Source: Variovorax sp. EL159
GTDB taxonomy: Bacteria > Pseudomonadota > Gammaproteobacteria > Burkholderiales > Burkholderiaceae_C
Length of the DNA stretch: 64,000 nucleotides
Assembly: GCF_900100965.1 (NCBI RefSeq)
Contig: NZ_FMUJ01000003.1
Location: 310,001 to 374,000, forward strand
Direction: 5' to 3'
Below are positions 13,188 to 42,798 of this stretch, one piece after another. Each line of letters starts with the position of its first letter. Positions within the stretch are counted from its first letter, which is position 1. The notes below the pieces were generated by a model. It searched no databases and was not told where the DNA came from. It was given only the letters and a program-made list of their open reading frames with translations. Made by a program: the position numbers and the translations under genes.

Positions 13188-13188
13188 C

Positions 13189-20441: not shown

Positions 20442-20483
20442 TTTGCGCATCGACGCTCCATACTGCGAGGAATCTCTTCCTTC

Positions 20484-23270: not shown

Positions 23271-23277
23271 ACGCCGG

Positions 23278-23296
23278 CTAGCCATCGCGGCTAGTG
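23278..23296 (+). promoter_or_regulatory. LAL box 1 (CTAGCC-N6-GGCTAGTG), upstream of the SDR operon
   Basis: Sequence CTAGCCATCGCGGCTAGTG with CTAG repeated at a 13-bp period. It shares 17 to 18 of 19 positions with the box at 39388-39370 and 15 of 19 with the box at 30151. CTAG is otherwise rare here. An ATCAT element begins 22 bases after the box. The box ends 114 bases before the SDR ATG. Assignment to the LAL regulator is inference. Confidence 0.6.
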
Positions 23297-23410
23297 GCTC
23301 GCGGCCTTCGGCTTCGCATCATCGATGCATGCGGCATTGCCTGTGTGGCAACCGCCGCTGCGGACCGCCCGGTCCGGCACATCGATCCCAGCGAAACGAA
23401 AGGAATGCAG

Positions 23411-24349
23411 ATGCAGCAACTGTGCAAGGACCGCGTGGCCGTCATCACCGGCGCGGGCCGCGGCCTCGGCCGCGAATACGCATTGGAGTTCGCGCGGCAG
23501 GGCGCGAAGGTGGTCGTCAACGACCTGGGCGCCAGGCCCGACGGCACGGGCGCCATGAACGGCCCCGCGCAGGAAGTGGTGGCCGAGATCCGCGCAATGG
23601 GCGGCGAGGCCGTGGCCAACACCGACGACGTGTCCGACTGGGAGGGCGCAAAGCGGCTGATCCAGACCGCGATCACCGCGTTCGGCGGGCTCGACGTGCT
23701 GGTCAACAACGCCGGCATCCTGCGCGACAAGACGCTGGTGAACATGGACATCGACGATTTCGACGCCGTGATCCGCGTCCACCTGCGCGGCACTTTCGCG
23801 CCGATGCGCCACGCCGCCGCGTACTGGCGCGAAGAGGCCAAGGCCGGGCGCCCGCGCGTGGCGCGCGTGGTCAACACCAGTTCGTCGTCCGGCCTGTACG
23901 GCATCGTGGGGCAGACCAACTACGGCGCGGCCAAGGCCGGCATCGCCAACATGACCATCGTGGCGTCGCGCGAGCTGGAACGCTATGGCGCGACCGTCAA
24001 TGCGATCTACCCGACCGCGATGAGCCGCCTGACGGAAGACCTTTTCAAGAGCGGCCAGCTCAACCCCAAGGCACCCGCCGGCGCCGCCGGGTTCGATCCG
24101 CTGGATGCGGCCAACGTGGCGCCGCTGGTCGTGTGGCTGGGCAGCGTGCATTCAAGCGCCGTCACCGGCCGAGTGTTCGGCGCCAAGGGCGGGCGTATCA
24201 CGGTGGCCGAAGGCTGGCGCGCCGGCCCCCATGTGCAGAAAGACAGCCGCTGGACCGCCGCCGAGCTGGGCGAGGTGCTGCCCGGCCTGGTCGCGCGCGC
24301 GGCGCCGAACGCCGACCTGAGCGGCCAGTTGAACCCGTCGAACGCGTGA
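23411..24349 (+). CDS. SDR-family 3-hydroxyacyl-CoA dehydrogenase (MFE-2-like)
   Basis: 312 residues from the ATG at 23411, six bases after AGGA; ATG 23405 is an alternative. The Rossmann motif TGAGRGLG is at the N-terminus, followed by NNAG and the catalytic Tyr171/Lys175 pair (YGAAK) with serines near 155-158. The sequence between and the long C-terminus resemble the dehydrogenase part of peroxisomal multifunctional enzyme 2, which oxidises 3-hydroxyacyl-CoA including branched and steroid side-chain substrates. It is the first gene after LAL box 1 and heads a unit with ligase, crotonase, thiolase and two Bug genes. Confidence 0.87.
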   Translation: MQQLCKDRVAVITGAGRGLGREYALEFARQGAKVVVNDLGARPDGTGAMNGPAQEVVAEIRAMGGEAVANTDDVSDWEGAKRLIQTAITAFGGLDVLVNNAGILRDKTLVNMDIDDFDAVIRVHLRGTFAPMRHAAAYWREEAKAGRPRVARVVNTSSSSGLYGIVGQTNYGAAKAGIANMTIVASRELERYGATVNAIYPTAMSRLTEDLFKSGQLNPKAPAGAAGFDPLDAANVAPLVVWLGSVHSSAVTGRVFGAKGGRITVAEGWRAGPHVQKDSRWTAAELGEVLPGLVARAAPNADLSGQLNPSNA

Positions 24350-24394
24350 CATGGACAAGGACTGTGGACACCGGTCCGCGTCAGGAGGCACCGC

Positions 24395-25966
24395 ATGAAA
24401 AAGGCGAACTACCTCGGCGACTTTGCCGCCCTGACGCCGGACAAGCCCGCCGTCATCAACGGCAGCAGCGGCGAGAGCCTCAGCTACCGCGAACTGGATG
24501 AACGCTCCAACCGGCTCGCGCAGGTGCTGTACGCCCAGGGCCTGCGCCGCGGCGATCGCATCGCGATGCTGCTGGAGAACCACATGCGTTGCTTCGAGGT
24601 GGCCTGGGCCGCCTTCCGCTCGGGGCTGCTGCTGACGGCGGTCAACCGGTACCTGACGGCGGGGGAGGTGGCCTACATCGTGGAGGACAGCGGCGCGCAG
24701 GTGTTGATCTCTTCGTTGGCGATGGCCGGCGTCGCGGCGGAACTCGTCGGCACCACGCCGCACTGCGCGCGCCGGCTGATGATGGACGGCACCATCCCCG
24801 GCTGGGAGTCCTACGAGCAGGCCGTGGCCGCCGCACCGGCGCAGCGGCTGGCCGAGGAGTGGGTGGGTGGCACGCTGCTGTACAGCTCGGGTACGACGGG
24901 CCGGCCCAAGGGCATCGTGCGCGCGGTGGCCCGTGCGCGCTTCGACGACGACGTGGCAGACCCGCGCCTGACGATGATGCACAGGTACGCGTTCGATGCC
25001 GATTCGGTCTACCTGTCCACCGCGCCGCTGTACCACGCGGCCCCGCTGTCCTATGCGACCAACACGCAGTTCCTGGGCGGCACCGTGGTGTTCATGCCCA
25101 AGTTCGACGCGCTCGGGTCGCTGGCGCTGATCGAGCGCTACCGCGTCACCCACAGCCAGTGGGTGCCGACCATGTTCATCCGCCTGCTGAAGCTGCCGGA
25201 CGCATCCCGCGAGGCCTTCGACTTGTCCAGCCACCGCGTGGCCATCCATGCCGCGGCGCCGTGCCCCGTCGAGGTCAAGCGCCGCATGATCGATTGGTGG
25301 GGCCCGATCGTGCGCGAGTACTACGGCGGCAGCGAAGGCAACGGCCTCACTTCCATCGACAGCGGGGAAGCGCTCGCGCATCCCGGCTCGGTGGGCCGCG
25401 CAGTGCTGGGCGTGCTGCGCATCTGCGACGACGATGGCAACGAACTCGCGGCGGGCCAGGACGGGCTGATCTATTTCGAGCGCGACAGCCTGCCTTTTCA
25501 CTATCACCGCGACCCCGGCAAGACCCGTGCGGCCCAGCACCCGCGGCACCCGGGCTGGACCACGATCGGCGACATCGGCCACGTGGACGCGGACGGCTAC
25601 CTGTATCTGACCGACCGGCTCTTTCACATGATCATCTCGGGCGGGGTGAACATCTACCCGCAGGCCATCGAAGATGCGCTGGCCCTGCACCCCAGCGTGC
25701 AGGACGCCGCCGTGATCGGCGTGCCCGACGCCGAGATGGGCGAGGCCGTGAAGGCCGTCATCGAGCCCGCGCCCGGCGTGGCGCCCACGCCGGCATTGGC
25801 CGAAGCGCTCATCGCCTTCCTTCGCGGCAAGGTCGCGAGCTACATGCTGCCGCGCTCGGTGGACTTCATCGACGAGATGCCGCGCCTTCCCACCGGAAAA
25901 CTCTACAAGCGCGCGCTGCGCGAGCGCTATGCCAAGGCCGAACCGAACAAGGAGACCCGGACATGA
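24395..25966 (+). CDS. AMP-forming acyl-CoA synthetase
   Basis: 523 residues. The ANL-superfamily motifs are present: phosphate-binding YSSGTTGRPKG (A3), EYYGGSEGNG (A5), TIGDIGHVDADGYLYLTDR (A7-A8 hinge) and the catalytic Lys near the end in PTGKLYKR (A10). It should activate a carboxylic acid with ATP and CoA. The acid-binding region is not close to any family I can name. Its last bases overlap the next crotonase start as ATGA, so the two are translationally coupled. Confidence 0.9.
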   Translation: MKKANYLGDFAALTPDKPAVINGSSGESLSYRELDERSNRLAQVLYAQGLRRGDRIAMLLENHMRCFEVAWAAFRSGLLLTAVNRYLTAGEVAYIVEDSGAQVLISSLAMAGVAAELVGTTPHCARRLMMDGTIPGWESYEQAVAAAPAQRLAEEWVGGTLLYSSGTTGRPKGIVRAVARARFDDDVADPRLTMMHRYAFDADSVYLSTAPLYHAAPLSYATNTQFLGGTVVFMPKFDALGSLALIERYRVTHSQWVPTMFIRLLKLPDASREAFDLSSHRVAIHAAAPCPVEVKRRMIDWWGPIVREYYGGSEGNGLTSIDSGEALAHPGSVGRAVLGVLRICDDDGNELAAGQDGLIYFERDSLPFHYHRDPGKTRAAQHPRHPGWTTIGDIGHVDADGYLYLTDRLFHMIISGGVNIYPQAIEDALALHPSVQDAAVIGVPDAEMGEAVKAVIEPAPGVAPTPALAEALIAFLRGKVASYMLPRSVDFIDEMPRLPTGKLYKRALRERYAKAEPNKETRT

Positions 25967-26808
25967 ACGACACCAGCACCGAAACCCTGCGCGCGTCGCA
26001 GTTGCGCATCGAGGGCGGCATTGCCGAACTCAGCCACCAGCGCCCGGCGCTGCGCAACGCGCTGTCCACCGAACTGCAGATGGATTACGTCGACGTCATC
26101 GCGCGCGTCGAGGGCGACCGCGAGATCCGCGTGCTGCTGATCACCGGCTCGGGCGGCAGCTTCTCGGCCGGTGGCGACGTCAAGTTCATGCGCGAGCGGC
26201 TGACCGACCCGAGCGTGGCGACGGCGGACTACATGCGGAGCCGGCTGCGCAAGGCGCACCAGTGGCTGACCCGCTTGCGCGAGCTGGAGGTGCCGGTCGT
26301 TGCCGCAGTCGACGGGCCGGCCTACGGCGCGGGCTTCGGCCTGGCGTTGCAGGCCGACTTCGTGCTCGCATCGACGCGCGCCGTGTTCTGCGCTTCATTC
26401 GCGCGCCTGGGTGCCGTGCCCGACTTCGGCCTGCTGCACACGCTGCCGCGCATCGTGGGCCTGTCCCGCGCGAAGGAGCTGATGCTGACGGCGCGTCGCC
26501 TGGGGGCAGAAGAAGCGCTGGCCTGGGGCCTCGTGCATGCGGTCCATGCGGACGATGCGCTGCCAACCGAGGCGAGGGCGTTTGCGCAGCGCCTGTGCGC
26601 AGGCCCGCGCGAAGCGGCCGGCATGACCAAGAACCTGGTCAACAAGAGCTTCGAGACCGACTGCGCCGCGATGTTCATGGCCGAGGCCAGCGCGCAAGCC
26701 GTTGCCATGCAAACGCCTTACCACGCCCAGGCCGTGGCCGACTTCGCGCGCGACGGCGCCTTCCGCTACGACTGGGACCGCCTGGCCGCCGCGCGGCCCA
26801 CCTCCTGA
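25963..26808 (+). CDS. Crotonase-family protein with both hydratase glutamates replaced
   Basis: 281 residues from the ATG at 25963, overlapping the ligase stop by four bases. The oxyanion segment GPAYGAG is present. At the Glu144 position there is Gly (GFGL), and at the Glu164 position there is Phe (CASF). An Asp follows in VPDFG, in the place where PaaG-type isomerases carry their catalytic Asp. This predicts a double-bond or epoxide isomerase rather than a hydratase. Hydration in this pathway is more likely done by the MaoC pair at 32664-33540. Confidence 0.83.
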   Translation: MNDTSTETLRASQLRIEGGIAELSHQRPALRNALSTELQMDYVDVIARVEGDREIRVLLITGSGGSFSAGGDVKFMRERLTDPSVATADYMRSRLRKAHQWLTRLRELEVPVVAAVDGPAYGAGFGLALQADFVLASTRAVFCASFARLGAVPDFGLLHTLPRIVGLSRAKELMLTARRLGAEEALAWGLVHAVHADDALPTEARAFAQRLCAGPREAAGMTKNLVNKSFETDCAAMFMAEASAQAVAMQTPYHAQAVADFARDGAFRYDWDRLAAARPTS

Positions 26809-26829
26809 ATTGCAAAAAGGAACAAGCGC

Positions 26830-28017
26830 ATGACTGAAAACGTTCTGGTCGCCGGCGTCGGCATGGTGCCCTTCACCAAGCCCGGCGCCGGTCCCAGCTA
26901 TCTCGAGATGGGCAGCGATGCCGTGCGCCTGGCATTGGCCGATGCCGGCATCGGCTACGGGCAGTTGCAGATGGCCTTCGCCGGCTATGTCTATGGCGAC
27001 ACCAGTTGCGGGCAGGGCGTGCTGTACCGCGTGGGCCGTACGGCCATTCCGGTGTTCAACGTCAACAACGCCTGCGCCACCGGCTCCAGCGCGCTCTACC
27101 TGGCGCGTGCGGCGGTGCAGAGCGGGCAGGTCGAGTGCGCGCTGGCGCTGGGCTTCGAGCAGATGCAGCCGGGCGCCACGCGCTCCAACTTTCCGGATCG
27201 CCCGATCCCGCGCGGCGACGTGCTGCCGATACAGGACGCGCTGTGCGGCGATGCCGGCGAGATCCCGCGCAACCTGGTGACCTTCGGCGGCGCCGGCCGC
27301 GAGCACATGCGCCAGTACGGCACCCGCATGTCCACCTTCGCAGCGATCCGCGCCAAGGCCAGCCGCCATGCGGCAAACAACCCGTTGGCGCTGTTCAGGA
27401 AGATCGTGACGACCGAAGACGTCATGAACGACCCGATCATGTGGGAAGGCGTGATGACCCGCATGATGGCCTGCCCGCCCACCTGCGGTGCGGCTGCAGC
27501 GGTCGTCTGCTCGCCCGCGTTCGCACGGCGGCATGGCCTGCGCACCGATGTCGCCATCCTGGCGCAGGCCATGGTCACGGACCCGGAGGAATCCTTCGAG
27601 CCGCCGACCATGAAAGGCTTCGTCGGCAGCTACATGGCGCAGCGCGCTTCGCACGCGGTCTACGAACAGGCCGGCGTCGATCCGCGGGACATCCCGGTGG
27701 TCGAGCTGCACGACTGCTTTGCGCACAACGAACTGCTGAGCTACGAATCGCTGGGCCTGTGCCCCGAAGGTGGCGCCGAGCAGTTCGTGCTGGACGGCGA
27801 CAACACCTATGGCGGCCGCGTCGTCACCAATCCTTCCGGCGGCCTGCTGTGCAAAGGCCATCCGCTGGGCGCCACCGGCCTGGCCCAGTGCTACGAGTTG
27901 ACGCACCAGCTGCGCGGCACGGCGGACAAGCGGCAGGTCGAGGGTGCGCGGCTGGCGCTACAGCACAACCTGGGCCTGGGCGGCGCCTGCGTGGTCACGC
28001 TGTACGGCAAGCATTGA
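26830..28017 (+). CDS. SCP-x-like thiolase (lipid-transfer protein type), copy 1
   Basis: 395 residues, the length of the SCP-x/lipid-transfer thiolase group that lacks a fused SCP-2 domain. The nucleophilic Cys82 lies in NNACATGSSA. The later active-site blocks ELHDCFAHNE and GHPLGATG are present. These thiolases cleave 3-ketoacyl-CoA, in known cases of branched or steroid side chains. It follows the crotonase gene by 21 bases. It is closely related along its length to the thiolase at 31463. Confidence 0.9.
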   Translation: MTENVLVAGVGMVPFTKPGAGPSYLEMGSDAVRLALADAGIGYGQLQMAFAGYVYGDTSCGQGVLYRVGRTAIPVFNVNNACATGSSALYLARAAVQSGQVECALALGFEQMQPGATRSNFPDRPIPRGDVLPIQDALCGDAGEIPRNLVTFGGAGREHMRQYGTRMSTFAAIRAKASRHAANNPLALFRKIVTTEDVMNDPIMWEGVMTRMMACPPTCGAAAAVVCSPAFARRHGLRTDVAILAQAMVTDPEESFEPPTMKGFVGSYMAQRASHAVYEQAGVDPRDIPVVELHDCFAHNELLSYESLGLCPEGGAEQFVLDGDNTYGGRVVTNPSGGLLCKGHPLGATGLAQCYELTHQLRGTADKRQVEGARLALQHNLGLGGACVVTLYGKH

Positions 28018-28046
28018 TTTCTTTCAGAACAACAGGAGACAAGGCC

Positions 28047-29048
28047 ATGCGCAAGACCCCCAAAGATTTCACTGCCCGGCATCGACGGTGCCTGCTGGCC
28101 GGCATTTGCTGCACCTGGCTGGGCTTGTCCGTGCCGGCGATAGCGCAGCCGGCGTCTTACCCCGCGCACCCGGTGCGCATCGTGTCGGTCAGCGGCGCGG
28201 GCACCGGCGTCGACGACTTCACGCGGCTGGCGGCAGGCTACCTGAGCCAGAAGACCGGCCAGAACTTCTATGTGGAGAACCGGCCCGGCGCCAACAGCAT
28301 CCTGGCGTCCGACCACGTCTCCAAGGCCGCGCCGGACGGCTACACGTTGCTGCTGACCGCGGCCAGCGCGATCACGGCGAACCCCTACCTCTACAAGAAG
28401 CTGCCCTACGACGCCAACAAGGACCTGGTGCCGATCGCTCGCATGTCCGTGGTGCCCATCGTGGTGATGGTGCCGGCCACCTCGCCGTACCGCAGCCTGG
28501 ATGCCTTGATGGCCGCCGCGCGCGCCCAGCCCGGCAAGCTCAGCTACGGCACGAGCACCACCGGCTACAAGGTGATGGTGGCCGCGATCAACGGGCTCGC
28601 GCGGGTGCGCGCGCTGGAGATTCCCTACAAGAGCTCGACCGCGCTGCTGCCCGACCTGATCTCCGGCACCCTCGACTACGCGATGCTGGAGGTGTCGCAG
28701 GCCGTGCCGCAGGTGGAGGGCGGCAAGCTGCGTGCGCTGGCGGTGTCGAGCCCGGTGCGCGTTCCCGCGCTGCCCGACGTACCCACGCTGAACGAGCTGG
28801 GTCTGGGCGACGCCACGCTGACGAGCTGGCTGGGCCTGTTCGCGCCGGCCGGCACGCCGCGCGCCATCGTGGACAAGCTCTCGAAGCTGGCCGTGGAGTT
28901 CGCGGCTTCGCCCGAAGCCACCCTGCATTTCACGCGGCGCGGCACCGCTGCTTACCCGGCCGCATCGGCCGAGTTCGCGAAAGCCATCCTGGAAGACCAG
29001 GCGCGGTGGAAGCACTACATCACCACCTCGGGTCTTCAGCCGGAGTAG
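28047..29048 (+). CDS. Bug-family (TctC-like) solute-binding receptor
   Basis: 333 residues from the ATG at 28047 after AGGAG. An unusually long N-terminal basic stretch precedes the hydrophobic core of the signal peptide (cleavage near residue 35, after PAIAQ). Family motifs VRIVSVSGAGTGVDDFTR and YVENRPGANS are present. It lies 29 bases after the thiolase in the LAL box 1 unit. Confidence 0.92.
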   Translation: MRKTPKDFTARHRRCLLAGICCTWLGLSVPAIAQPASYPAHPVRIVSVSGAGTGVDDFTRLAAGYLSQKTGQNFYVENRPGANSILASDHVSKAAPDGYTLLLTAASAITANPYLYKKLPYDANKDLVPIARMSVVPIVVMVPATSPYRSLDALMAAARAQPGKLSYGTSTTGYKVMVAAINGLARVRALEIPYKSSTALLPDLISGTLDYAMLEVSQAVPQVEGGKLRALAVSSPVRVPALPDVPTLNELGLGDATLTSWLGLFAPAGTPRAIVDKLSKLAVEFAASPEATLHFTRRGTAAYPAASAEFAKAILEDQARWKHYITTSGLQPE

Positions 29049-29136
29049 CACGGCCGCTTCTTCTCGCGTCCGATCGTTTCGCATCCGCCAACCGCCTGGC
29101 CCCATTCGGGTCCATTGACCAGGCAAGGAACCCGCC

Positions 29137-30108
29137 ATGAACCGCATCCGGACATTCGTGCTCGCCGTTGCCTTCGCCTGGAGCGCGCTGGGCTTCGCCC
29201 AGGGCTATCCCACGCGGCCCATCACCATGGTCGTGCCCGCGCCGGCCGGAGGCGCTTCCGATGCGATCGCGCGATCGCTCGCCGAGACCATGGGCAAGGC
29301 GCTGGGCCAGGTCGTCATCGTCGACAACAAGCCCGGTGCGTCGGGCATGCTGGCCACGCAGGCGGTGGCCCGTGCCCCCGCCGATGGCCACACTGTGCTG
29401 GTGACGCACACCACGCCCATCTACTACGCGCACCACATGTTCTCGAAGGTGCCCTACGACGTGCGCCGCGATCTCGCATTCGTGACGCACATCTGCGATG
29501 CGACGCTGGTGCTGGCGGTGCACAGGGACATTCCCGCCAGGAACATGAAGGAGTTCATCGCATGGGCCAAGGGCAACAAGGGCAAGCTCAGCTACGGTTC
29601 CTACGGGGTGGGCTCGGCCGGGCACCTGATGAGCGCACACCTCAGCGAATCGCGGCAACTCGGCATGTCCCATGTTCCCTACAAGGGAGAGGCTCCGATG
29701 ATCCAGGAGCTGGTGGGCGGACATATCCCGTGGGCGCTTGCCACGGCGGGCTCCTTGTTGCCGCATGTCAGCAGCGGCCGGCTGCGGCCATTGGCTGTGG
29801 TGGGTGAGCATCGGCTCGATGACCTGCCCGACGTGCCGACGCTGGCCGAGGCCGGCTTTCCCGACCCGGAGTTTCGGATCATCGGCGGGCTGACCATGAT
29901 GGTGCCCGCCGGCACGCCGCCGCCCGTGCTGGCCCGCCTCGAACAGGAGGCGCGCGCCGCGATCCAGAGCGCGCAGTTGAAGGCGCGCTTCCAGGTCTTC
30001 GGCCTCATCGGTGTCGGGAACAGCGCCAGGGAGGCGCGCCAGGGTTTCGAGGACAGCGGGCCGCTCATCGAGAAGCTGGTCCGCATCTCGGGCGCGAAGT
30101 TGGATTGA
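29137..30108 (+). CDS. Bug-family (TctC-like) solute-binding receptor
   Basis: 323 residues with a signal peptide of about 22 residues and family motifs ITMVVPAPAGGASDAIAR and VIVDNKPGASG. It is the second of two adjacent receptors, 88 bases after the first, and probably the last gene of the unit starting at 23411. The next unit has its own box at 30151. Confidence 0.92.
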   Translation: MNRIRTFVLAVAFAWSALGFAQGYPTRPITMVVPAPAGGASDAIARSLAETMGKALGQVVIVDNKPGASGMLATQAVARAPADGHTVLVTHTTPIYYAHHMFSKVPYDVRRDLAFVTHICDATLVLAVHRDIPARNMKEFIAWAKGNKGKLSYGSYGVGSAGHLMSAHLSESRQLGMSHVPYKGEAPMIQELVGGHIPWALATAGSLLPHVSSGRLRPLAVVGEHRLDDLPDVPTLAEAGFPDPEFRIIGGLTMMVPAGTPPPVLARLEQEARAAIQSAQLKARFQVFGLIGVGNSAREARQGFEDSGPLIEKLVRISGAKLD

Positions 30109-30150
30109 GCGCGCGCCGCCATCAAGAAAAGAACGCCTGCACCCGCTCGA

Positions 30151-30169
30151 CTCGCCAATACGGCTAGTG
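30151..30169 (+). promoter_or_regulatory. LAL box 2, upstream of the acyl-CoA dehydrogenase operon
   Basis: Sequence CTCGCCAATACGGCTAGTG, matching box 1 in 15 of 19 positions with the right half GGCTAGTG intact. ATCAT begins 22 bases after the box, exactly as at box 1. It ends 95 bases before the GTG start of the dehydrogenase at 30265. Confidence 0.55.
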
Positions 30170-30264
30170 ATTTACCCAGCCTGGCTCGCGATCATGAACC
30201 TCAAGGCGGCAGGATTTTTTCGAAGCCGCAGTTCCGTCAACAGACGCATCGAGAGGAGCCTCCA

Positions 30265-31404: not shown

Positions 31405-31462
31405 GCACCGAGCTGCCTGCAACTTTCCTTCCTTCTTTCCCCTTTACTGAACTGGAGAAACC

Positions 31463-32650
31463 ATGAGTGAAAAAGTCCTGGTCGGCGGTGTCGGCATGAT
31501 CCCGTTTTCCAAACCTGGCGCGAGCCCGAGCTACACCGACATGGGGGCCGATGCAGTGCGCCGCGCGCTGGCCGATGCCGGCATCGGCTACGAGCTGGTG
31601 CAGCAAGCGTACGTGGGCTACGTGTACGGCGACTCGACCTGCGGGCAGACGGCGCTGTACGAAGTCGGGCTCACCGGCATTCCGGTCGTCAACGTCAACA
31701 ACAACTGCTCGACCGGATCGACCGCGCTCTACCTGGCGCGCCAGGCCGTGGCGCTGGGCGACGCCGACTGCGTGCTGGCACTGGGCTTCGAGCAGATGCA
31801 GGCCGGCGCGCTCAAGTCGCACTGGGACGACCGGCCGCGCACGCGTGCACGCGTCGCGCACATCGTGAGCGACCTCACGGCCGATGTGCCCGAGCTGCCG
31901 CAGGCCCTGCGCACCTTCGGCGGTGCGGGCCGCGAGCACATGCAGAAGTACGGCACGAAGATGCAGACCTTCGCCGCCATCCGCGCCAAGGCCAGCCGGC
32001 ATGCCGCGAGCAATCCACTGGCCATCTTCAGGAACGTGCTCAGCACCGAGGACGTGATGAACGACAAGGTGATGTGGCCCGGCGTGATGACGCGCCTGAT
32101 GGCCTGCCCGCCGACCTGCGGCGCGGCCGCCGCGCTGATCGTGTCCGAGAAGTTCGCGAAGAAGCACGGCCTGCGCAGCGACGTGCAGATCCTAGCGCAG
32201 GCGATGACCACCGACCCGGTCGCGTCCTTCGATCCGCCGTCGATGATCAGCTACGCCGGCTTCCACATGGCGCAGGCGGCGGCGCACAAGGTCTACGAGA
32301 AGGCCGGCGTCGACCCCATGGACATCCGCGTCTGCGAGCTGCACGACTGCTTTGCCCAGAACGAACTGCTGACCTACGAAGCGCTGGGCCTGTGCCCGGT
32401 GGGCGAGGGCGAGAAGTTCGTCGAGGACGGCGACAACACCTATGGCGGACGGGTGGTGACCAATCCGTCGGGCGGCCTGTTGTCCAAGGGCCATCCGTTG
32501 GGCGCCACGGGCCTTGCGCAGTGCTACGAGCTGACGCACCAGTTGCGCGGCACGGCCGACCAGCGGCAGGTGGACGGCGTGACGCTGGCGCTGCAGCACA
32601 ACCTCGGCCTTGGCGGCGCCTGCGTGGTGACGCTGTACGGCCGCAACTGA
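31463..32650 (+). CDS. SCP-x-like thiolase (lipid-transfer protein type), copy 2
   Basis: 395 residues, the same length as the thiolase at 26830 and alike throughout. The nucleophile is the Cys of NNNCSTGSTA (residue 82). The ELHDCFAQNE and GHPLGATG blocks follow. It lies 58 bases after the dehydrogenase and 13 bases before the MaoC-like gene. Having two such thiolases under the same box suggests two rounds or two chain types of cleavage. Confidence 0.9.
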   Translation: MSEKVLVGGVGMIPFSKPGASPSYTDMGADAVRRALADAGIGYELVQQAYVGYVYGDSTCGQTALYEVGLTGIPVVNVNNNCSTGSTALYLARQAVALGDADCVLALGFEQMQAGALKSHWDDRPRTRARVAHIVSDLTADVPELPQALRTFGGAGREHMQKYGTKMQTFAAIRAKASRHAASNPLAIFRNVLSTEDVMNDKVMWPGVMTRLMACPPTCGAAAALIVSEKFAKKHGLRSDVQILAQAMTTDPVASFDPPSMISYAGFHMAQAAAHKVYEKAGVDPMDIRVCELHDCFAQNELLTYEALGLCPVGEGEKFVEDGDNTYGGRVVTNPSGGLLSKGHPLGATGLAQCYELTHQLRGTADQRQVDGVTLALQHNLGLGGACVVTLYGRN

Positions 32651-32663
32651 GCGCGGAGGCCAC

Positions 32664-33116
32664 ATGCTCGACCGCCAACTGATCGGCCACACGCTGGGCA
32701 AGCGCAGCCTCACCGTCGAAGAGGGTGCCGTGCGTTCCTACGCACAGGCCATCGGCGAGACCGATGCCACCTACCTCGATGCCTCGGCCGCACGCGATGC
32801 CGGCCACCGCGCGCTGCGCGTGCCGCCCACCTTCCTGTCGTGCCTGGAGGGCCGGCTGTTCCAGACGCGCGCGCTGCTGGAGCTGGCCCGCATCGACCTG
32901 AAGCGACTGCTGCATGCGGAGCAAAGCTACGAGTACCACGCGCAGGCCTATGCCGGCGACGTTCTCAGCTACGAGCCGAAGATCGTCGACGTTTACGACA
33001 AGAAGGGCGGGGCGCTCGAGTTTCTGGTGAAGCAGACCCGCGTGACCAACCAGGACGGCGTGCACATCGCCGACCTGCGCACGGCCCTCGTGCAACGCCA
33101 GCTCGCGGAGGCATGA
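32664..33116 (+). CDS. MaoC N-terminal-type (FAS1-like dehydratase) subunit
   Basis: 150 residues, a single hot-dog domain of the kind found as the N-terminal half of two-domain hydratases. It lacks the catalytic G-D-x-N-P-x-H block. Recognisable segments are YAQAIGETDATYLDA and VYDKKGGALEFLV. In two-subunit enoyl-CoA hydratases such as ChsH1/ChsH2 this type pairs with a catalytic MaoC subunit. The next gene, 4 bases downstream, is exactly that. A second such pair, with a frameshift in this subunit, lies at 37218-38093. Confidence 0.85.
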   Translation: MLDRQLIGHTLGKRSLTVEEGAVRSYAQAIGETDATYLDASAARDAGHRALRVPPTFLSCLEGRLFQTRALLELARIDLKRLLHAEQSYEYHAQAYAGDVLSYEPKIVDVYDKKGGALEFLVKQTRVTNQDGVHIADLRTALVQRQLAEA

Positions 33117-33120
33117 ACAC

Positions 33121-33540
33121 ATGACGACCCCGGCACTGAAAAACATGCAGGTGGGCGACAGCATTCCCGCGCTGCAGCTGCCCGCGATCTCCCGCACCAC
33201 GCTGGCGCTGTATGCCGGCGCGTCGGGCGATCACAACCCGATTCACATCGACATCGACTTCGCCCGCAATGCCGGCCTGGACGACGTGTTCGCGCACGGC
33301 ATGTTGTCGGCCGCCTACGTGGGGCGGCTGGTCACGAACTGGGCGGGGCAGGAGCGGCTGCGGCGCCTGCACGTGCGCTTCACCGGCATCACGCAGGTGC
33401 ATGACGTGCCGCTGTGCACCGGCCGCGTGACCCAACGCTTCGAACACGAAGGCGAGCCGCGGCTGCGCATCGAAGTGCAGTGCGCCAACCAGAACGGCGA
33501 CGTGAAGATTCTTGGCGAAGCCGTGGTGGCCGCCCTTTGA
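33121..33540 (+). CDS. Catalytic MaoC-type enoyl-CoA hydratase subunit
   Basis: 139 residues. The hydratase-2 motif is intact (YAGASGDHNPIHID) with the catalytic Asp and His, followed by FAHGMLSAAYVGRL. It should hydrate 2-enoyl-CoA to 3-hydroxyacyl-CoA, probably as a heteromer with the product of 32664-33116. It lies 4 bases after that gene and 25 bases before the SDR gene, which would take the hydration product. Confidence 0.9.
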   Translation: MTTPALKNMQVGDSIPALQLPAISRTTLALYAGASGDHNPIHIDIDFARNAGLDDVFAHGMLSAAYVGRLVTNWAGQERLRRLHVRFTGITQVHDVPLCTGRVTQRFEHEGEPRLRIEVQCANQNGDVKILGEAVVAAL

Positions 33541-33565
33541 CATTCATCCACAGGAGAAAGCAAGC

Positions 33566-34396
33566 ATGAACAGAAATCTCGAAGGCAAGGTGGCCATGGT
33601 CACCGGCGCAGGACGCGGCATCGGCCGGTGCATCGCGCTGAAGCTCGCCAATGAAGGCGCCAAGGTGGTGGTCAACGACCTCGATGCGGCACCGGCCGAT
33701 GAGGTGGTGGCGGAGATCCGTGCGGCCGGCGGCCAGGCCGTCGCGTTCGCCAGCAGCGTGACCGCGCCGGACTTCGGCACGAACTTCGTCAAGGCGACGC
33801 TCGACGCCTACGGTGCCATCGACATCATCGTCAACAACGCCGGCTACACCTGGGACAACGTGATCCAGAAGATGAGCGACGAGCAGTGGGACGCGATTCT
33901 CGACTGCCACCTGAAGGCACCGTTCCAGGTGCTGCGCGCCGCGCAGCCGTACTTCCGCGAAGTGAGCAAGGCCGAGGCCGAAAGCGGCAAGGAGGTGTTT
34001 CGCAAGGTGGTGAACATCTCCTCGATCTCGGGCACGCAGGGCAGCACGGGGCAGGTCAACTACTCGGCGGCCAAGGCGGGCCTGGTGGGCATGACCAAGA
34101 CGCTGGCCAAGGAATGGGGCCGCATGAAGGTCAACGTGAACTGCGTGGCCTTCGGCTTCATCGCCACGCGGCTCACGCAGCCGGTGAAGGAAGCCAAGAC
34201 GATCCAGATCGAGGGCAAGGAAATCCGCATCGGCGTGCGGCCAGAGACCATCGAACGCGCCAGCAGCGAGATCCCGCTGGGCCGCCCCGGCACGCCCGAG
34301 GAAGCGGCGGGCTCGGTCTACATGTTCTGCATTCCGGAATCGAACTACGTCACCGGCCAGACGCTGATCTGCGGCGGCGGGCGCGGCGGCTTCTAG
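33566..34396 (+). CDS. SDR-family 3-hydroxyacyl-CoA dehydrogenase-like protein, second copy
   Basis: 276 residues from the ATG at 33566 (AGGAG upstream). The TGAGRGIG nucleotide motif, NNAG and Tyr166/Lys170 (YSAAK) with the preceding SSISG serines are present. The C-terminus ends TGQTLICGGGRGGF, a normal SDR ending. Operon position after the MaoC pair fits oxidation of 3-hydroxyacyl-CoA. FabG-like activity is an alternative reading of the sequence. Confidence 0.88.
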   Translation: MNRNLEGKVAMVTGAGRGIGRCIALKLANEGAKVVVNDLDAAPADEVVAEIRAAGGQAVAFASSVTAPDFGTNFVKATLDAYGAIDIIVNNAGYTWDNVIQKMSDEQWDAILDCHLKAPFQVLRAAQPYFREVSKAEAESGKEVFRKVVNISSISGTQGSTGQVNYSAAKAGLVGMTKTLAKEWGRMKVNVNCVAFGFIATRLTQPVKEAKTIQIEGKEIRIGVRPETIERASSEIPLGRPGTPEEAAGSVYMFCIPESNYVTGQTLICGGGRGGF

Positions 34397-34426
34397 CAAG
34401 GCACCTCTCAAGGCAAGGCGCTTTTC

Positions 34427-36136
34427 ATGGCACGGTTGACCCGCCACTACGCACACTGGCCCGCCGGCGTTCCGCAGACGCTGGAGGTGGCCGATCGCAA
34501 CCTGTTCAGCCACCTCGCCAAAAGCGCCGAGGCCGCGCCGGACAAGGTCGCGATCTCTTACTACGGCCGCTCGACCAGCTACCGCAGCCTGCATGCGGAT
34601 GCACTGGCGCTGGCCGGCTATCTGCAACAGCGGCTGGGCGTGCGGCGCGGCGACCGCGTGCTGCTGCTGATGCAGAACTGCCCGCAGTTCGTCATCGCCT
34701 ACTACGCGGTGCTGCGATGCGATGCCGTGGTGGTGGCCATGAACGCCATGAGCACCGCCGAAGAGGTGGCCTACTACGCCAGCGATTCCGGCGCGCGGGT
34801 GCTGATCGCCACGCAGGACATGATGGACAGGGCGCAGTCCTTGCTCGATCAAAACCGCCTGGACGGGTGCGTAGTCGGCGCGGTCTCGGAGTTCGCCGGA
34901 CGGCCAGAGGAAGTTCCCTTTCTTGAAATCCCCGAGTTCGTGTGCGAAGCACGGCGACCGTTGGCTGGCGCCGGGCTGCACGCGTTCTCGGGCGCGCTTG
35001 CGGCCGGCATCGCGCCGACCCCGATGCAGGGCGGGGGCGGTGACCTCGCCGTGGTGGCCTACACCTCGGGCACCACCGGCAAGCCCAAGGGCGCGATGCT
35101 GACGCACCGCAACTTCGCCCACGCATCGCTGCAGCGCGTGGAGTGGCTGTCGGAGCAGGCCGACCAGACCGAGCTGCTGGTGCTGCCGGCCAGCCACCTG
35201 GCCGGCATGAACGTGATGAACCTGGCGATCTACGTCGGGCGCACCGTCGTGCTGCTGTCGCGCTGGGATGGCGACGCGGTGGTCGAGCTGATCGAGCGCC
35301 TGCGCCTGTACGCCTGGTGCGCCGTCACGCCGATGCTGGCCGAGGTGTTCTCGCGGCCCGACATCGCGCAGCGTGATCTTTCTTCGCTGCGGCGCCTCTA
35401 TGGCGGCGCCACGGCCATGCCCGAGGCGCTGATCCGCAAGATCGAGGAACGGCTGGGGCTGTCCTTCATCGAGAGCTACGGGCTGACGGAAGCCTGCGGC
35501 GCCTCGCACATCAACCCGCCGCAGGCCGCGCGGCGCCAGTGCGCGGGCGTGCCGCACATCAACTGCGATGCGCGGGTGATCGACCCCGACTCGGGTGCGG
35601 AACTGGGGCCCGCGCACGCCGGGGAAATCGTGATCCACGGCCCCACCTTGTTCGGCGGCTACTGGAACCAGCCGGAGGCCACGGCGGCGGCGACCATCGA
35701 GATCGACGGCAAGCGCTTCCTGCGCAGCGGCGACATCGGCCATCACGACGAGGACGGCTATTTCTACGTCACCGACCGGCTCAAGCGAATGATCAACGCG
35801 GCGGGCCTGAAGATCTGGCCCGCCGAGATCGAGACCTCGCTCTACGGCCATCCGGCCGTGCAGGAAGCCTGCGTGATCTCGGCCTTCGACGCGCGCCGCG
35901 GCGAGACCGTCAAGGCCTTCGTGGTGCTGCGCCCGGCGGCGCGCGGCACGTTGATGCCGGAGGCGGTGACGGAATGGGCGCGCACCCGCCTGTCGGCCTA
36001 CAAGGTGCCGCGCGTGGTGGAGTTCGTCGACGCGTTGCCCAAGACGGCAACGGGAAAGATCCTGTGGCGGGAACTGCAGGCGCAGCAGGACGAACGCGAC
36101 CGCGCCGCGCGCGCCGCCGCATCCGCACTGGCTTGA
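34427..36136 (+). CDS. AMP-forming long-chain-type acyl-CoA synthetase
   Basis: 569 residues. ANL motifs: AYTSGTTGKPKG (A3), SYGLTEACGASH (A5), RSGDIGHHDEDGYFYVTDR (A7-A8) and the terminal ATGKILWREL with the catalytic Lys. The overall layout resembles FadD-like ligases that open beta-oxidation pathways. It supplies the activation step of the 30265-37166 operon. It follows the SDR gene by 30 bases. Confidence 0.9.
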   Translation: MARLTRHYAHWPAGVPQTLEVADRNLFSHLAKSAEAAPDKVAISYYGRSTSYRSLHADALALAGYLQQRLGVRRGDRVLLLMQNCPQFVIAYYAVLRCDAVVVAMNAMSTAEEVAYYASDSGARVLIATQDMMDRAQSLLDQNRLDGCVVGAVSEFAGRPEEVPFLEIPEFVCEARRPLAGAGLHAFSGALAAGIAPTPMQGGGGDLAVVAYTSGTTGKPKGAMLTHRNFAHASLQRVEWLSEQADQTELLVLPASHLAGMNVMNLAIYVGRTVVLLSRWDGDAVVELIERLRLYAWCAVTPMLAEVFSRPDIAQRDLSSLRRLYGGATAMPEALIRKIEERLGLSFIESYGLTEACGASHINPPQAARRQCAGVPHINCDARVIDPDSGAELGPAHAGEIVIHGPTLFGGYWNQPEATAAATIEIDGKRFLRSGDIGHHDEDGYFYVTDRLKRMINAAGLKIWPAEIETSLYGHPAVQEACVISAFDARRGETVKAFVVLRPAARGTLMPEAVTEWARTRLSAYKVPRVVEFVDALPKTATGKILWRELQAQQDERDRAARAAASALA

Positions 36137-36191
36137 AAAAAATCCGGCCACGGGTGCGCCGCATCCAGTGGCTTCTGCAAGGAGACAAGAC

Positions 36192-37166
36192 ATGAAGAAG
36201 ACCGGTGTATTCGCGTTGCTGGCCCTGGCGATGGCCGTGCCCGCACTCTCGCAGGCCCAGGCTGATGAGGGCTATCCGTCCCGCGCGGTGCGCTTCATCG
36301 TGCCCATCGGGCCCGGCAGCAGCGGCGACACGCTCACGCGGTTGATGGCGGAGCAGTTCAGGGCGGTCTCGGGGCAGGCGACCTTCGTCGAGAACCGGCC
36401 CGGCGCCGACCTTGTCGTCGGCACGCAGAACCTGTTGGGCTCACCGCCGGATGGCCATTCGGTGGTGCTCATCAGCAACAGCACCATGGTGATCAATCCG
36501 CTGGTCATCAAGGACCTGCCGTACAAGGTGGAAGACCTCTCGCCGATGCTCGACCTGGTGCGCATTCCGGCCGTGCTGGTGACATCGCCCGACTCGCGGT
36601 TCAAGACGCTGGGCGATCTGCTCGATGCGGCGCGCAAGGTGCCGGGGTCGGTCAGCATCGGCGTTTATGGCAACTCGTACCGGCTGGGCGCGCTGGACCT
36701 GGCGCGCCGCGCGGGCGTGAAGTTCAACGCCATTCCCTACAAGGGCGCTTCGCAGGCCATTGCCGACGTGATCGGCGGCGTGGCCGATGCGGCGCTGATC
36801 GACGTCGGCGGTGCGGCGCCGCTGATCGCCTCGGGCAAGGTGCGGGGGCTGGCCGTGTCGTCGGGCAAGCGCCATGCGTTGATGCCGGCGGTGCCCACCG
36901 TGCAGGAAGGCGGCGTGACCGACTACACGCTCTTCACCTTCATCGGCTTTGCGATCCGCGCCCGGACGCCGGCGCCGATTGCCGGCAAGTTCGAGGCGCT
37001 GATGGTGCGCGCGGCCGCCGATCCGGCGTTCCGCGAGCAGGTGGTTCGCATCAGCGGCGGGGAGTTTGCCGGCACGGGCCGGGAGGCGTTCAGCACGATG
37101 ATCGCCGGCGAATCGGCGCGCACGCGCGAACTGGTCAAGCTCGCGGGGCCGGATTTCATGCGGTGA
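36192..37166 (+). CDS. Bug-family (TctC-like) solute-binding receptor
   Basis: 324 residues from the ATG at 36192 (GGAGACAAGAC upstream). A signal peptide of about 27 residues (cleavage near QAQA) is followed by VRFIVPIGPGSSGDTLTR and FVENRPGADL. It is the last gene of the operon led by the dehydrogenase at 30265 and ends before a hairpin at 37172. This placement again joins an orphan receptor with acyl-CoA catabolism. Confidence 0.92.
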   Translation: MKKTGVFALLALAMAVPALSQAQADEGYPSRAVRFIVPIGPGSSGDTLTRLMAEQFRAVSGQATFVENRPGADLVVGTQNLLGSPPDGHSVVLISNSTMVINPLVIKDLPYKVEDLSPMLDLVRIPAVLVTSPDSRFKTLGDLLDAARKVPGSVSIGVYGNSYRLGALDLARRAGVKFNAIPYKGASQAIADVIGGVADAALIDVGGAAPLIASGKVRGLAVSSGKRHALMPAVPTVQEGGVTDYTLFTFIGFAIRARTPAPIAGKFEALMVRAAADPAFREQVVRISGGEFAGTGREAFSTMIAGESARTRELVKLAGPDFMR

Positions 37167-37171
37167 TCGCA

Positions 37172-37201
37172 TGGTCCCTGGCGCCGCGGCACCGGGGACC
37201 A
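37172..37201. terminator. Hairpin between convergent genes, candidate bidirectional terminator
   Basis: A 10-bp stem (TGGTCCCTGG against CCGGGGACCA, one G-T pair) with a 10-base loop lies in the 51-bp gap between two convergent stops. No T-run follows on either side, so termination strength is uncertain. Confidence 0.45.
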
Positions 37202-37217
37202 CGCTGCGGCCGGGAGT

Positions 37218-37637
37218 TCAGCGTGCGATGACCGCGTCGCCCAGGATCTTCACCTCGCCGTCCTGGTTGGTGGTGCGGATCTCCACCTTCACACGCTCTT
37301 CGCCGTCGGCCTCGAACATGTCGATGACCTCGCCCGTGCAGGTGATGGCATTGCCCAGATGCGTGATGCCGGCAAAGCGCGCGTTGAACTGGCGCACCTT
37401 GCGCTGGTCGACCCACTGCGTCAGCAGGCGGCCCAGGTAGGCCATCGACAGCATGCCGTGCGCGAACACGTCGGGCATGCCGCCGCGCTGGGCGAAGTCC
37501 AGGTCGATGTGCATCGGGTTGTGGTCGTTCGATGCACCGGCGAAAAGCGCCAGGGTCGTGCGGGTGATCGGGGCGAGTGCCAGCGGCGGCAGGGTGTCGC
37601 CGGGTTCGAGGGCGTCGAAGTTCAGGGTCTTCATCAT
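37218..37637 (-). CDS. Catalytic MaoC-type enoyl-CoA hydratase subunit, second copy
   Basis: 139 residues from the first of two adjacent ATGs (37637), which lies 7 bases after AAGGA. The hydratase-2 motif FAGASNDHNPMHID is intact, followed by FAHGMLSMAYLGRLL. The sequence is clearly paralogous to 33121-33540. Its normal partner subunit, encoded just upstream at 37654-38093, carries a frameshift. Unless that is a sequencing error, this catalytic subunit must work alone or with the partner from 32664. Confidence 0.9.
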   Translation of the reverse strand: MMKTLNFDALEPGDTLPPLALAPITRTTLALFAGASNDHNPMHIDLDFAQRGGMPDVFAHGMLSMAYLGRLLTQWVDQRKVRQFNARFAGITHLGNAITCTGEVIDMFEADGEERVKVEIRTTNQDGEVKILGDAVIAR

Positions 37638-37653
37638 CGGATGTTCCTTGTGT

Positions 37654-38093
37654 TCAGCCATTGCGGTGCACCAGCACCTTGCGGATGTCGGCCACGTGTT
37701 CGGAGCGCTGGTTGGTGACGCGGGTTTCCATGACGACGAATTCGAGCGCGCCGCCTTTCTTGTCGTAGACGTCGGTGACGCGGCTGTCGAAGTGCAGCGT
37801 GTCGCCCGCGTAGGCCATGCGCCGATAGGTGAAGGACTGCTCGCCATGCAGCACGCGCGCCAGCTCGATGCCGGCTTCTTCGCGCCAGTTGCTCGGCGGA
37901 CGCGCAAGCTCCAGCGAGAACAGGAAGGTGGGCGGCAGTGGCAGGGCAGGGTGGCCGGCGTCGCGCGCGGCGGACTCGTCGAAGTAGACCGGATCGGTCT
38001 CGCCGATGGCCTTGGCGAAGAAGCGCAGCTGCCCGGCTTCGGCGGTGATGGCAAGGGCGGGAACGCCATGCCGATGATGTTCTTGTCGATCAT
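37654..38093 (-). pseudogene. Frameshifted MaoC N-terminal-type hydratase subunit
   Basis: The reading starts normally at ATG 38093 (AAGGAG upstream) with MIDKNIIGMAFPP, then the frame is lost within a G-run (38055-38057 on the plus strand). After adding one base there, the product continues ITAEAGQ, then AKAIGETD, to VYDKKGGALEFV and a stop at 37654. This gives a protein that aligns without a gap to the first 34 residues of the 32664 product. In the shifted frame after the break no ATG, GTG or TTG start exists near the N-terminus. It is a one-base deletion or a read error in a short homopolymer. The C-terminal 66 codons alone are open from an internal ATG at 37854. Confidence 0.8.
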
Positions 38094-38131
38094 GAAGATG
38101 CTCCTTGTTGTGAGGTGCCGGCTTGCCCGGT

Positions 38132-39271
38132 CTACAGCTTGCGCGAGATCAGGTCGCGCATCACTTCGCTGGTGCCGCCGTAGATACGGCTGACACGCAT
38201 GTCGACGAAGGCGCGTGCGATGGGGTACTCCAGCATGTAGCCGTAGCCGCCGTGCAGTTGCACCATGTCGTCGATGCACTTCCACAGCGTCTCGGTGGCG
38301 AACAGCTTGGCGATGGCGGCTTCTTCCACCGTGAGGCGTCGGCTCATGTGCGCTGCGAGGTAGTAATCGACCATCGTGCGCAACGCCACCGACTGGGCCT
38401 TGATGTCGGCCAACTTGAACTTCGTGTTCTGGAAGTCCCACACGGTCTGGTCGAAGGCGCGGCGGTCTTTCACGTACTCGAGGGTCTGCTGCAACAGCCG
38501 CTCGAGCTTGGTGGCGGCGCTGACGGCGATCATGAAGCGCTCTTGCGGCAGCTCCTGCATCAGGTAGGCGAAGCCCTTGCCTTCTTCGCCGAGCCGGTTG
38601 GCCACCGGCACGCGGATGTTGTCGAAGAAGAGCTCGGCCGTGTCCTGGGCGCGCATGCCGACCTTGTCGAGCTTGCGACCACGGCGAAAGCCCGCGCGGT
38701 CTGTCTCGACCACGACCAGGCTCACGCCCTTGGCGCCAGCGGCGGGGTCGGTCTTGCACACCACGACCACCAGATTGCTGAGGAAGCCGTTGCTGATGAA
38801 GGTCTTGCTGCCGTTGATGATGTAGTCGTCGCCGTCGCGGATTGCGGTGGTGCGCAGCGACTTCACGTCCGAGCCGCCGCCCGGTTCGGTGATGGCCACC
38901 GCCAGGATCTGCTCGCCTCGGCAGATGCCTGGCAGCCACTTCTGCTTTTGCGCCTCGGTGCCCAGGCGGTTGATGTAGGGCGCCACGATGTCCGAATGCA
39001 GCCCGATCGACAGGCCGCCGACACCGGCATGCGCGATCTCCTCGGCAACGATGGCCGCGTGGCCGAAGTCGCCGCCACCACCGCCGTACTCGGTGGGCAG
39101 CGTGGTGCACAGCAGGCCTTCGCGGCCGGCTTTGAGCCAGACCTCGCGGCTGACCTGGCCGTCGCGGTCCCATTCGGCCTGGTGCGGCACGCACTCGCGC
39201 TCGAGAAAGCGGCGCACCGTGGTGCGGAAAGTCTCGTGGTCCTCGCGATAGACGCTGCGTTCGACTTGCAT
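38132..39271 (-). CDS. LCAD-like acyl-CoA dehydrogenase, copy 2
   Basis: 379 residues, the same length as the product of 30265 and clearly paralogous over its whole length (identical LHSDIVAPYI, GGGSDVK and QLHGGYGYMLEYPIARAF blocks). The C-terminal Glu is replaced by Gly (IYGGTSEVMRD), and Glu244 in MQELPQERF is the likely base, as in LCAD. It heads the minus-strand unit that ends with the MaoC pair. LAL box 3 lies 99 bases upstream. Confidence 0.92.
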   Translation of the reverse strand: MQVERSVYREDHETFRTTVRRFLERECVPHQAEWDRDGQVSREVWLKAGREGLLCTTLPTEYGGGGGDFGHAAIVAEEIAHAGVGGLSIGLHSDIVAPYINRLGTEAQKQKWLPGICRGEQILAVAITEPGGGSDVKSLRTTAIRDGDDYIINGSKTFISNGFLSNLVVVVCKTDPAAGAKGVSLVVVETDRAGFRRGRKLDKVGMRAQDTAELFFDNIRVPVANRLGEEGKGFAYLMQELPQERFMIAVSAATKLERLLQQTLEYVKDRRAFDQTVWDFQNTKFKLADIKAQSVALRTMVDYYLAAHMSRRLTVEEAAIAKLFATETLWKCIDDMVQLHGGYGYMLEYPIARAFVDMRVSRIYGGTSEVMRDLISRKL

Positions 39272-39592
39272 GTCGCCAACTCCTTGAATGACGGAACGGA
39301 GCGATCCGCCGGAGGCGTCACGGCGAAATCCGTTCCTTCGGTGATCGTCGTGGGACGGAGGAGCCGGCGCACTAGCCGCGAAGGCTAGGGCGCTTTCGCG
39401 CGATCAAGGACGGCTGCTGGGTACGACGCGACGCCGGGCGCAAGTTGCTCGCTGGCGGCAGAGCGCGAAGCCCTTGCAGCAAGCCTCCGATTTACTTGTT
39501 TTCGGGTATGGCCCCGCTGGAAACGAAAGGACACACTCGCTCGCGTCCGGATCGCTCGTCGTCCCTTCTCGCTCTTCATCACAGGAAACACC
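39272..39592. other. 321-bp divergent intergenic region between the dehydrogenase and the adhesin
   Basis: Contains LAL box 3 (39370-39388) in the orientation of the dehydrogenase. The remainder shows no further clear repeat or open frame with family sequence. The adhesin has a good ribosome binding site (AGGAAACACC) immediately before its ATG. Confidence 0.5.
39370..39388 (-). promoter_or_regulatory. LAL box 3, upstream of the minus-strand dehydrogenase
   Basis: On the minus strand CTAGCCTTCGCGGCTAGTG, differing from box 1 in one position. An ATCAC element follows after 23 bases, close to the ATCAT spacing at boxes 1 and 2. The box ends 98 bases before the ATG at 39271. Confidence 0.6.
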
Positions 39593-42117: not shown

Positions 42118-42798
42118 TCACCACTTTCCGTCTTTGGGCACGGCCTTCGGCGCGTTGGCTCTTGCCGTCGCCGCGGCCGTGATCATCGCGGCTGCATCCG
42201 AGCGATTCGCCTTGTTCGCGAAATCGACGGCAGTCATGCCGAGCTGGTTCTTCATCGTCGTATCTGCACCTTCGTCGAGCAGCAGCTTCACGGCATCGCT
42301 CGATCCGTACATCGCGGCCATCATCAGCGGCGTGGTGCCGTTGGGCGATTGCGCATCGATGAAGGCGTAGTTCTCGAGCAGCACCTTCATGATCGCCAGC
42401 TGGCCGCTGGTAGCGGCGTAATGCAGCGGGGTCCATCCGGTCTTGTTGACGGCGGCATCGCGCTTCAGCAGTTGGGCGACCAGGTCTTGCTGGCCCTTGA
42501 TGGCGGCCAGCATCAGCGGGGTTTCGTCCTTGGGGCTGGCCAGGTCGACATCGGTCTGCGGAGATTCGAGCAGCGCCTGGATGACCTTGGGCGACGGCTC
42601 GCGCATGGCAATCAGCAAGCCGGTCTGGCCATGTTCGTCACGCGTATTCGGATCGAACCCGCGCTTCAGCAGGCTGCGGACACCACTGCCGTTGTCGCCA
42701 CGCACGGCCCGGAAGAAGTCTTCGAACGAACCCGCATGTGCTGCAAAAGATGCAGCAATGACAACAAGATAAATTGATTTTTTAAAGTAGTTCTTCAT
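42118..42798 (-). CDS. Secreted ankyrin-repeat protein
   Basis: 226 residues from ATG 42798. A signal peptide (about 1-22, ending AAHA) is followed by about five ankyrin repeats, with clear TPLMLAAIKGQQDLV, TPLHYAATSGQLAIM and TPLMMAAMYGSSDAV helices. The protein is probably periplasmic and works in protein-protein binding. Its ATG overlaps the tatD stop as ATGA, so it is translated with tatD, although the family has no known link to TatD. Confidence 0.88.
   Translation of the reverse strand: MKNYFKKSIYLVVIAASFAAHAGSFEDFFRAVRGDNGSGVRSLLKRGFDPNTRDEHGQTGLLIAMREPSPKVIQALLESPQTDVDLASPKDETPLMLAAIKGQQDLVAQLLKRDAAVNKTGWTPLHYAATSGQLAIMKVLLENYAFIDAQSPNGTTPLMMAAMYGSSDAVKLLLDEGADTTMKNQLGMTAVDFANKANRSDAAAMITAAATARANAPKAVPKDGKW

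Follow-up and report, generated by a model that had tools for sequence, protein, structure and literature searches.

Three short DNA boxes in a catabolic island of Variovorax sp. EL159 are, we propose, the operators of a LAL regulator encoded at 20484-23270, which would bring three acyl-CoA-degradation units under its shared control. The island lies in a stretch of 64,000 nucleotides (contig NZ_FMUJ01000003.1, positions 310,001 to 374,000), here called the window, whose coordinates are used unless another sequence is named. We put the probability of this reading at roughly 0.85; binding, activation and transcription starts are what we infer from the letters. A first-pass annotation had suggested a promoter box shared under the adjacent LAL regulator, and this is still the best-supported reading. 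It goes beyond co-location because the boxes are conserved across genera, in loci with rearranged gene order, because the half-site changes together with the recognition helix of the regulator, and because a -10-like hexamer keeps a fixed distance from the box.

Putative operator boxes and their probable regulator

20484..23270, plus strand: LAL / MalT-like regulator, 928 residues (Pfam and NCBIfam profiles)
23278..23294, plus strand: predicted operator P1 (site 1), dyad CTAGCC-ATCGC-GGCTAG, then TG at 23295-23296; 19-mer CTAGCCATCGCGGCTAGTG
23317..23322, plus strand: -10-like hexamer of P1, CATCAT, 22 bases past the dyad
30151..30167, plus strand: predicted operator P2 (site 2), dyad CTCGCC-AATAC-GGCTAG, then TG; 19-mer 30151-30169, CTCGCCAATACGGCTAGTG
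30190..30195, plus strand: -10-like hexamer of P2, GATCAT, 22 bases past the dyad
39372..39388, minus strand: predicted operator P3 (site 3), dyad CTAGCC-TTCGC-GGCTAG, then TG at 39371-39370; 19-mer 39388-39370, CTAGCCTTCGCGGCTAGTG
39344..39349, minus strand: -10-like hexamer of P3, GACGAT, 22 bases past the dyad

What had been described as a box is better regarded as a dyad, with its centre predicted near -43: all three sites have the 6-5-6 inverted repeat CTMGCC-N5-GGCTAG followed by TG, and a constant 22 bases separates the 17-mer dyad from a hexamer of the form nAnnAT. Both the inverted repeat and the constant hexamer distance had been overlooked at first. The three 19-mers themselves stand at the positions and on the strands first reported, sites 2 and 3 agreeing with site 1 at 15 and 18 of 19 positions; boxes 1, 2 and 3 lie 114, 95 and 98 bases ahead of start codons, within the range of 95-114 given, and the LAL stop codon at 23270 is 7 bases ahead of box 1. 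The statement that ATCAT or ATCAC follows after 22-23 bases needs adjustment, as ATCAT stands 21 bases past the 19-mer at sites 1 and 2, and the ATCAC of site 3 stands at 24, three bases beyond the ATCAT position of P1 and P2, with GACGAT occupying the common distance. At a 17-base spacing from the hexamers are GTGGCT, GTGATT and GTGCGC (P1 to P3), which by sequence would make poor -35 elements.

These features suggest the following mechanism. The LAL protein, with inducer and ATP bound, would place two GerE domains on CTMGCC-N5-GGCTAG. If the hexamer is taken as a sigma-70 -10 element (-12 to -7), the dyad would extend from about -51 to -35, with the GTG at the right end falling at the TTG position of a -35 element with a 17-base spacer, so that the activator would replace a poor -35. 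The LAL protein would then recruit RNA polymerase (class II activation, sigma-70), and the three acyl-CoA-degradation units would be switched on together.

CTAG is as rare as had been claimed, with 9 copies in 64 kb against 55.7 expected, five of the nine being within the boxes. Searching the window with the site-1 19-mer and up to three mismatches returned only sites 1 and 3 (site 2 has four mismatches), and two matches were reached in 0 of 100 shuffles (mean 0.02). Across the 7,002,411 bases of the genome, two places carry CTAGCC-N5-GGCTAG exactly, and both are inside the window; one mismatch adds four places, namely site 2 and three others (C6:434800, C8:33986 and C9:190108) that overlap open frames and are not among the places matching the composite pattern described next with up to three mismatches. 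This composite pattern, dyad plus TG plus N21 plus ANNAT, was written from the three window sites, so their match to it is by construction and it is the absence of other perfect places that counts. The 7.0-Mb genome has three perfect places, P1 to P3, and one with two mismatches. With up to three mismatches there are 11 forward and 10 reverse matches, against 11 and 13 for the reversed pattern, and since the total does not exceed this control we regard the remaining matches as background. The first-pass annotation had named many hits outside promoters as grounds for giving up the idea; scanning this genome and related genomes did not produce them.

The regulator begins with an AAA ATPase domain (AAA_16) with Walker A motif GPAGSGKT at residue 59, continues with a TPR_MalT region (PF17874), and ends in a GerE (LuxR-type) helix-turn-helix (HTH) domain (PF00196, residues 861-913) with recognition helix VTPHTVKWHLRKIY. 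The Walker A domain, the MalT-type TPR region together with the large size, and the C-terminal GerE domain assign it, by profile, to the LAL / MalT group, and it misses the NCBIfam equivalog cut-off for MalT proper (284.3 bits versus 537). NarL (1je8) is by sequence the best solved relative of the HTH domain; aligned with it, the LAL protein has H, adjoining TVK, at the position of a NarL S. The nearest named relative is a protein of V. boronicumulans NBRC 103145, 93% identical. Four matches in the own genome cover most of the LAL query, and another LAL-type protein, distant at 30% identity, runs across the left edge of the window (1-252, minus strand; C7:307640-310252). LAL regulators have been called a poorly studied family (PMC3282765).

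Conservation in related genomes and loci

Three of 101 genomes of the genus (G000, G403, G454) hold an orthologue at 93% identity or more, the LALs of the other genomes being at most 53% identical. The composite pattern occurs at nine places in the genus, three in each of these three genomes and none in the other 98. CTMGCC-N5-GGCTAG alone is found in 20 of the 101; in the 17 that lack the orthologue there is a single place per genome (two in G487), and we consider these background because none fits the full pattern. The exact dyad CTAGCC-N5-GGCTAG is present in four of 399 genomes of the family, the own genome included, and the places in the other three are attributed to chance, since G287 and G337 have no LAL match (E 1e-10) and G219 has one of 29% identity. 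Across the order (399 genomes), an LAL search at E 1e-150, in which few candidates per genome were scored, returned only the own genome. When the promoters are aligned across the three orthologue-bearing genomes, P2 retains 18 of 19 box positions and 6 of 6 in the hexamer, versus 11 of 40 upstream and 7 of 20 in the linker; for P3 the box (17/19) and the hexamer (5/6) similarly stand out from the upstream region (15/40) and the linker (5/20).

A wider comparison drew on 44 LAL loci, of which L058 and L059 were dropped as HTH fragments only, leaving 42 and, with the window, 43. The recognition helix reads HTVKWHLRK (after TP, TT or TS) in the window LAL and nine relatives, and the other 33 LALs have E or D ahead of TVK or TIK. 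The half-site GGCTAG, in a dyad with the hexamer, is found in nine of the ten HTVKWHLRK loci (17 sites) and in none of the 33 others; in L018 and L048, one site each pairs CTAGCC with GGGTAG. In DosR, the residue ahead of TVK is Lys179. Base contacts in DosR are made by Lys179, Lys182 and Asn183 (PMC4082495).

Eight of the nine relative loci with this helix have boxes, and in all eight a box precedes the orthologue of the acyl-CoA dehydrogenase at 30265, while gene order and strand vary. The orthologue of the short-chain dehydrogenase/reductase (SDR) at 23411 has a box directly ahead in five of the eight (L017, L019, L020, L021, L023), and in two (L018, L048) a TctC gene stands between box and SDR; the SDR unit of Cupriavidus is separated from the LAL gene and on the opposite strand. 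A third box in L019 and L020 precedes a gene divergent from the LAL gene and resembling an acyl-CoA ligase (27-28% identity to the ligase at 34427). Nineteen window proteins were compared with these loci, two of them regulators (the LAL protein and a LysR-type protein, 16010-17116), and of these two only the LAL protein is present in all eight box-bearing relatives. The LAL gene of L048 (Variovorax boronicumulans DE0202; 10001-12760) seems split between two frames, with stops at 12760 in one and 12725 in the other and an open piece of 568 residues, and the boxes are kept.

Sister LALs have dyads of their own, mostly with the same hexamer spacing; downstream of their genes we find CYMCCC-N5-GGGTRG, CTACWC-N5-GGGTAG, CTACAC-N5-GTGTAG, CCCCCC-N5-GGGGAG and CCACCC-N5-GGGGTG. 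Dyad complementarity alone was too loose, a dyad-only search with a bare ATCAT tail giving a modest peak at 23 bases (26 versus 4-20 at other offsets), and matrices were therefore used. Training sites were chosen by eye: among 19 candidates ATC lay 23 bases past the 17-mer in 15, at 24 in two and at neither in two, and the fixed spacing within the 15 training sites is by choice, since they were selected for it. The box-plus-hexamer matrix from these 15 gave 47 matches of at least 16 bits in the 952,752 bases of the 43 loci, distributed over 29 loci, compared with 0 in the mirrored control and 0, 2, 0, 2 and 0 in Markov sequences. The 47 comprise the 15 seeds and 32 others, 21 of which are set apart from the seeds and from each other by more than 10 differences in 45 bases.

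Spacing was then examined with a box-only matrix from which the hexamer columns were withheld, at 10 bits or more and with the seeds excluded, giving 205 sites, thinned to 177 (70 in the mirrored control), some of them related promoters, including orthologues of seeds. The pattern.A..AT stands at offset 22 in 26 of the 177 and at offset 23 in five, and each of 33 other offsets (2 to 36) has 0-4. A -10 element linked to an activator site would be expected to produce such a peak.

Two groups of loci show variants of this arrangement. In L026, L030, L038 and L050, which have no 16-bit match, CTACAC-N5-GTGTAG lies directly past the LAL gene with CACACT, not ATCAT, at the same spacing; they form a Cupriavidus LAL subgroup with helix SLDTVKYHLRN (KWHLRN in L026, SVDT in L050). 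In L036, L046, L049, L053 and L057, whose helix is SIDTVKWHLKN, the minus strand, opposite to the LAL gene, bears CC(A/C)CCC-GATC(G/A)-GGGTAG with CAGAAT at the same spacing.

Objections and competing explanations

A number of observations weigh against the proposal that the boxes are operators of this LAL regulator. Co-occurrence within the genus is confounded, since the whole island is inherited together, and the further tests therefore weigh more. The HTVKWHLRK LALs form one clade (10 rows, support 100/100) and the ten loci include the near-identical pairs L019/L020 and L023/L029, so that the matched change of helix and half-site counts as one event. L027 has a regulator with the HTVKWHLRK helix and no box, its flanks also being without the SDR and dehydrogenase targets, and in L029 the orthologue of the SDR at 23411 has no box; there, a box precedes another SDR, the orthologue of that at 33512. 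In the promoter alignment the P1 region is conserved nearly throughout, so that little can be learned from it, and the leaders past the hexamer are fairly conserved (P1 55/70, P2 55/70, P3 39/70), so the box is not the sole part kept. The -10 of P3 is weak, and no box scoring at least 10 bits with the box-only matrix lies ahead of the LAL gene itself (10545-23277, both strands). Fourteen of the 43 loci have no match of 16 bits, 14 of the 47 matches fall inside an open frame (as called by a crude caller that also flags some seeds), and 13 further LAL loci of about 35% identity (1.5 kb flanks, 74,019 bases) gave no match, so that the rule cannot be claimed for all LALs.

Perhaps the most serious competitor, though in our view an unlikely one, is that the LAL protein, once on the box, represses by obstructing the -35 region until an acyl-CoA releases it. 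The dyad does overlap the -35 position, and SCO6993, an LAL of Streptomyces, is a repressor acting at sites that contain short inverted repeats (PMC9628970); however, the -35 hexamers of P1 to P3 are poor at the 17-base spacing, as expected of activator-dependent promoters, and MalT and AlkS are activators. Slightly less likely still, we believe, is that the boxes belong to another regulator, such as the LysR-type protein at 16010-17116 or one elsewhere in the genome, with the LAL gene a mere neighbour. That LysR gene lies in the same island and is found in L017, L018, L048 and L021, and the comparison of regulators covered the loci only. The LysR gene was not found, however, in the flanks of the box-bearing L019 (which ends at a contig edge), L020, L023 and L029, and it is present in the box-free L027; moreover, a change of recognition helix in the LAL protein goes with a change of half-site, and comparable dyads lie next to the LALs of other subgroups. 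A reading of the dyads as intrinsic terminators, as a dispersed repeat or as chance matches would be suggested at most by P1, which stands directly behind the LAL stop codon. We consider these readings ruled out, as there is no T run after the dyads, P2 and P3 stand ahead of genes, TG and the hexamer give the dyads a fixed orientation, and the genome has only three composite places, with controls equal to background.

Known systems, catabolic units and implications

The first-pass annotation knew of no published box of this form, and here it has to be corrected: the form has a precedent in AlkS (LuxR/MalT group), an activator of a catabolic operon with an inverted repeat by -35, the centre of which is near -42. 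AlkS of Pseudomonas putida GPo1 activates PalkB and PalkS2 through a 20-bp inverted repeat upstream of -35 (PMC8784404, PMC12740625). The same layout is recognisable here by sequence, the dyad adjoining -35 and a -10-like hexamer standing at a fixed distance (three window sites; 26 of 177 with the hexamer withheld). Unlike the window system, AlkS has another dyad sequence, serves alkane oxidation rather than acyl-CoA degradation, and activates its own promoter, whereas the window LAL gene is without a box. MalT of E. coli shares the domain order AAA, MalT-type TPR, GerE, but its box is the short GGA[TG]GA (PMC9628970), in contrast to the window dyad; this motif is absent from the forward strand of all three promoters and from either direction near P1 and P2, with one reverse match (TCCTCC) near P3. 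NarL of E. coli recognises the heptamer TACYYMT in a 7-2-7 inverted repeat (PMC4886647, PMC9314961). The TACCC/GGGTA core is common to the CTACCC/GGGTAG half-sites of some sister LALs, but NarL has one base more between the halves (TACCC-N6-GGGTA, derived from 7-2-7) and is a response regulator, not an LAL, and the window half-site is GGCTAG. Finally, SCO6993 is likewise an LAL whose footprinted sites have short inverted repeats, but it represses, and those who footprinted it were unable to arrive at a consensus (PMC9628970). No published box for this LAL group was recognised in the open-access literature, judged mostly by titles and abstract openings. In the light of the AlkS, MalT and NarL comparisons, the kind of switch is known; the operator, which we regard as new, the spacing rule and the link to the helix did not come up in that literature.

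The genes behind the boxes form three units, each of which is probably read as a single transcript.

23411..30108, plus strand: unit 1, headed by P1
23411-24349, plus strand: SDR
24395-25966, plus strand: acyl-CoA ligase
about 25990-26808, plus strand: enoyl-CoA hydratase (frame 24589-26808)
26830-28017, plus strand: LTP-type thiolase
frame of 27006-29048, plus strand: first TctC
29137-30108, plus strand: second TctC
30265..37166, plus strand: unit 2, headed by P2
30265-31404, plus strand: acyl-CoA dehydrogenase, GTG start
31463-32650, plus strand: LTP-type thiolase
32664-33116, plus strand: FAS1-like dehydratase
33121-33540, plus strand: MaoC
33512-34396, plus strand: SDR
34427-36136, plus strand: acyl-CoA ligase
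36168-37166, plus strand: TctC
37218..39271, minus strand: unit 3, headed by P3
39271-38132, minus strand: acyl-CoA dehydrogenase
38123-37218, minus strand: MaoC-domain protein

Directly past unit 3 is a gene for a YadA-type trimeric autotransporter adhesin with head and stalk repeats (39593-41377, plus strand), and close to it one for an ankyrin-repeat protein (42118-43266, minus strand).

For a poorly studied family, the comparative data yield an operator and a small regulon, together with a spacing rule and a testable rule that leads from helix to half-site. They might even amount to a readable LAL operator code, for which we see about even odds: in a 6-5-6 dyad, usually 22 bases ahead of the -10, the third half-site base would follow the residue ahead of TVK (E or D with GGG or GTG, H with GGC). 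If this code is true, the operators and regulons of further LALs in catabolic islands of Burkholderiales would be predictable from protein sequence. For Variovorax sp. EL159 itself, the catabolic island becomes addressable, since the genes induced would identify the pathway, and the boxes would provide a biosensor promoter that is ready for use.

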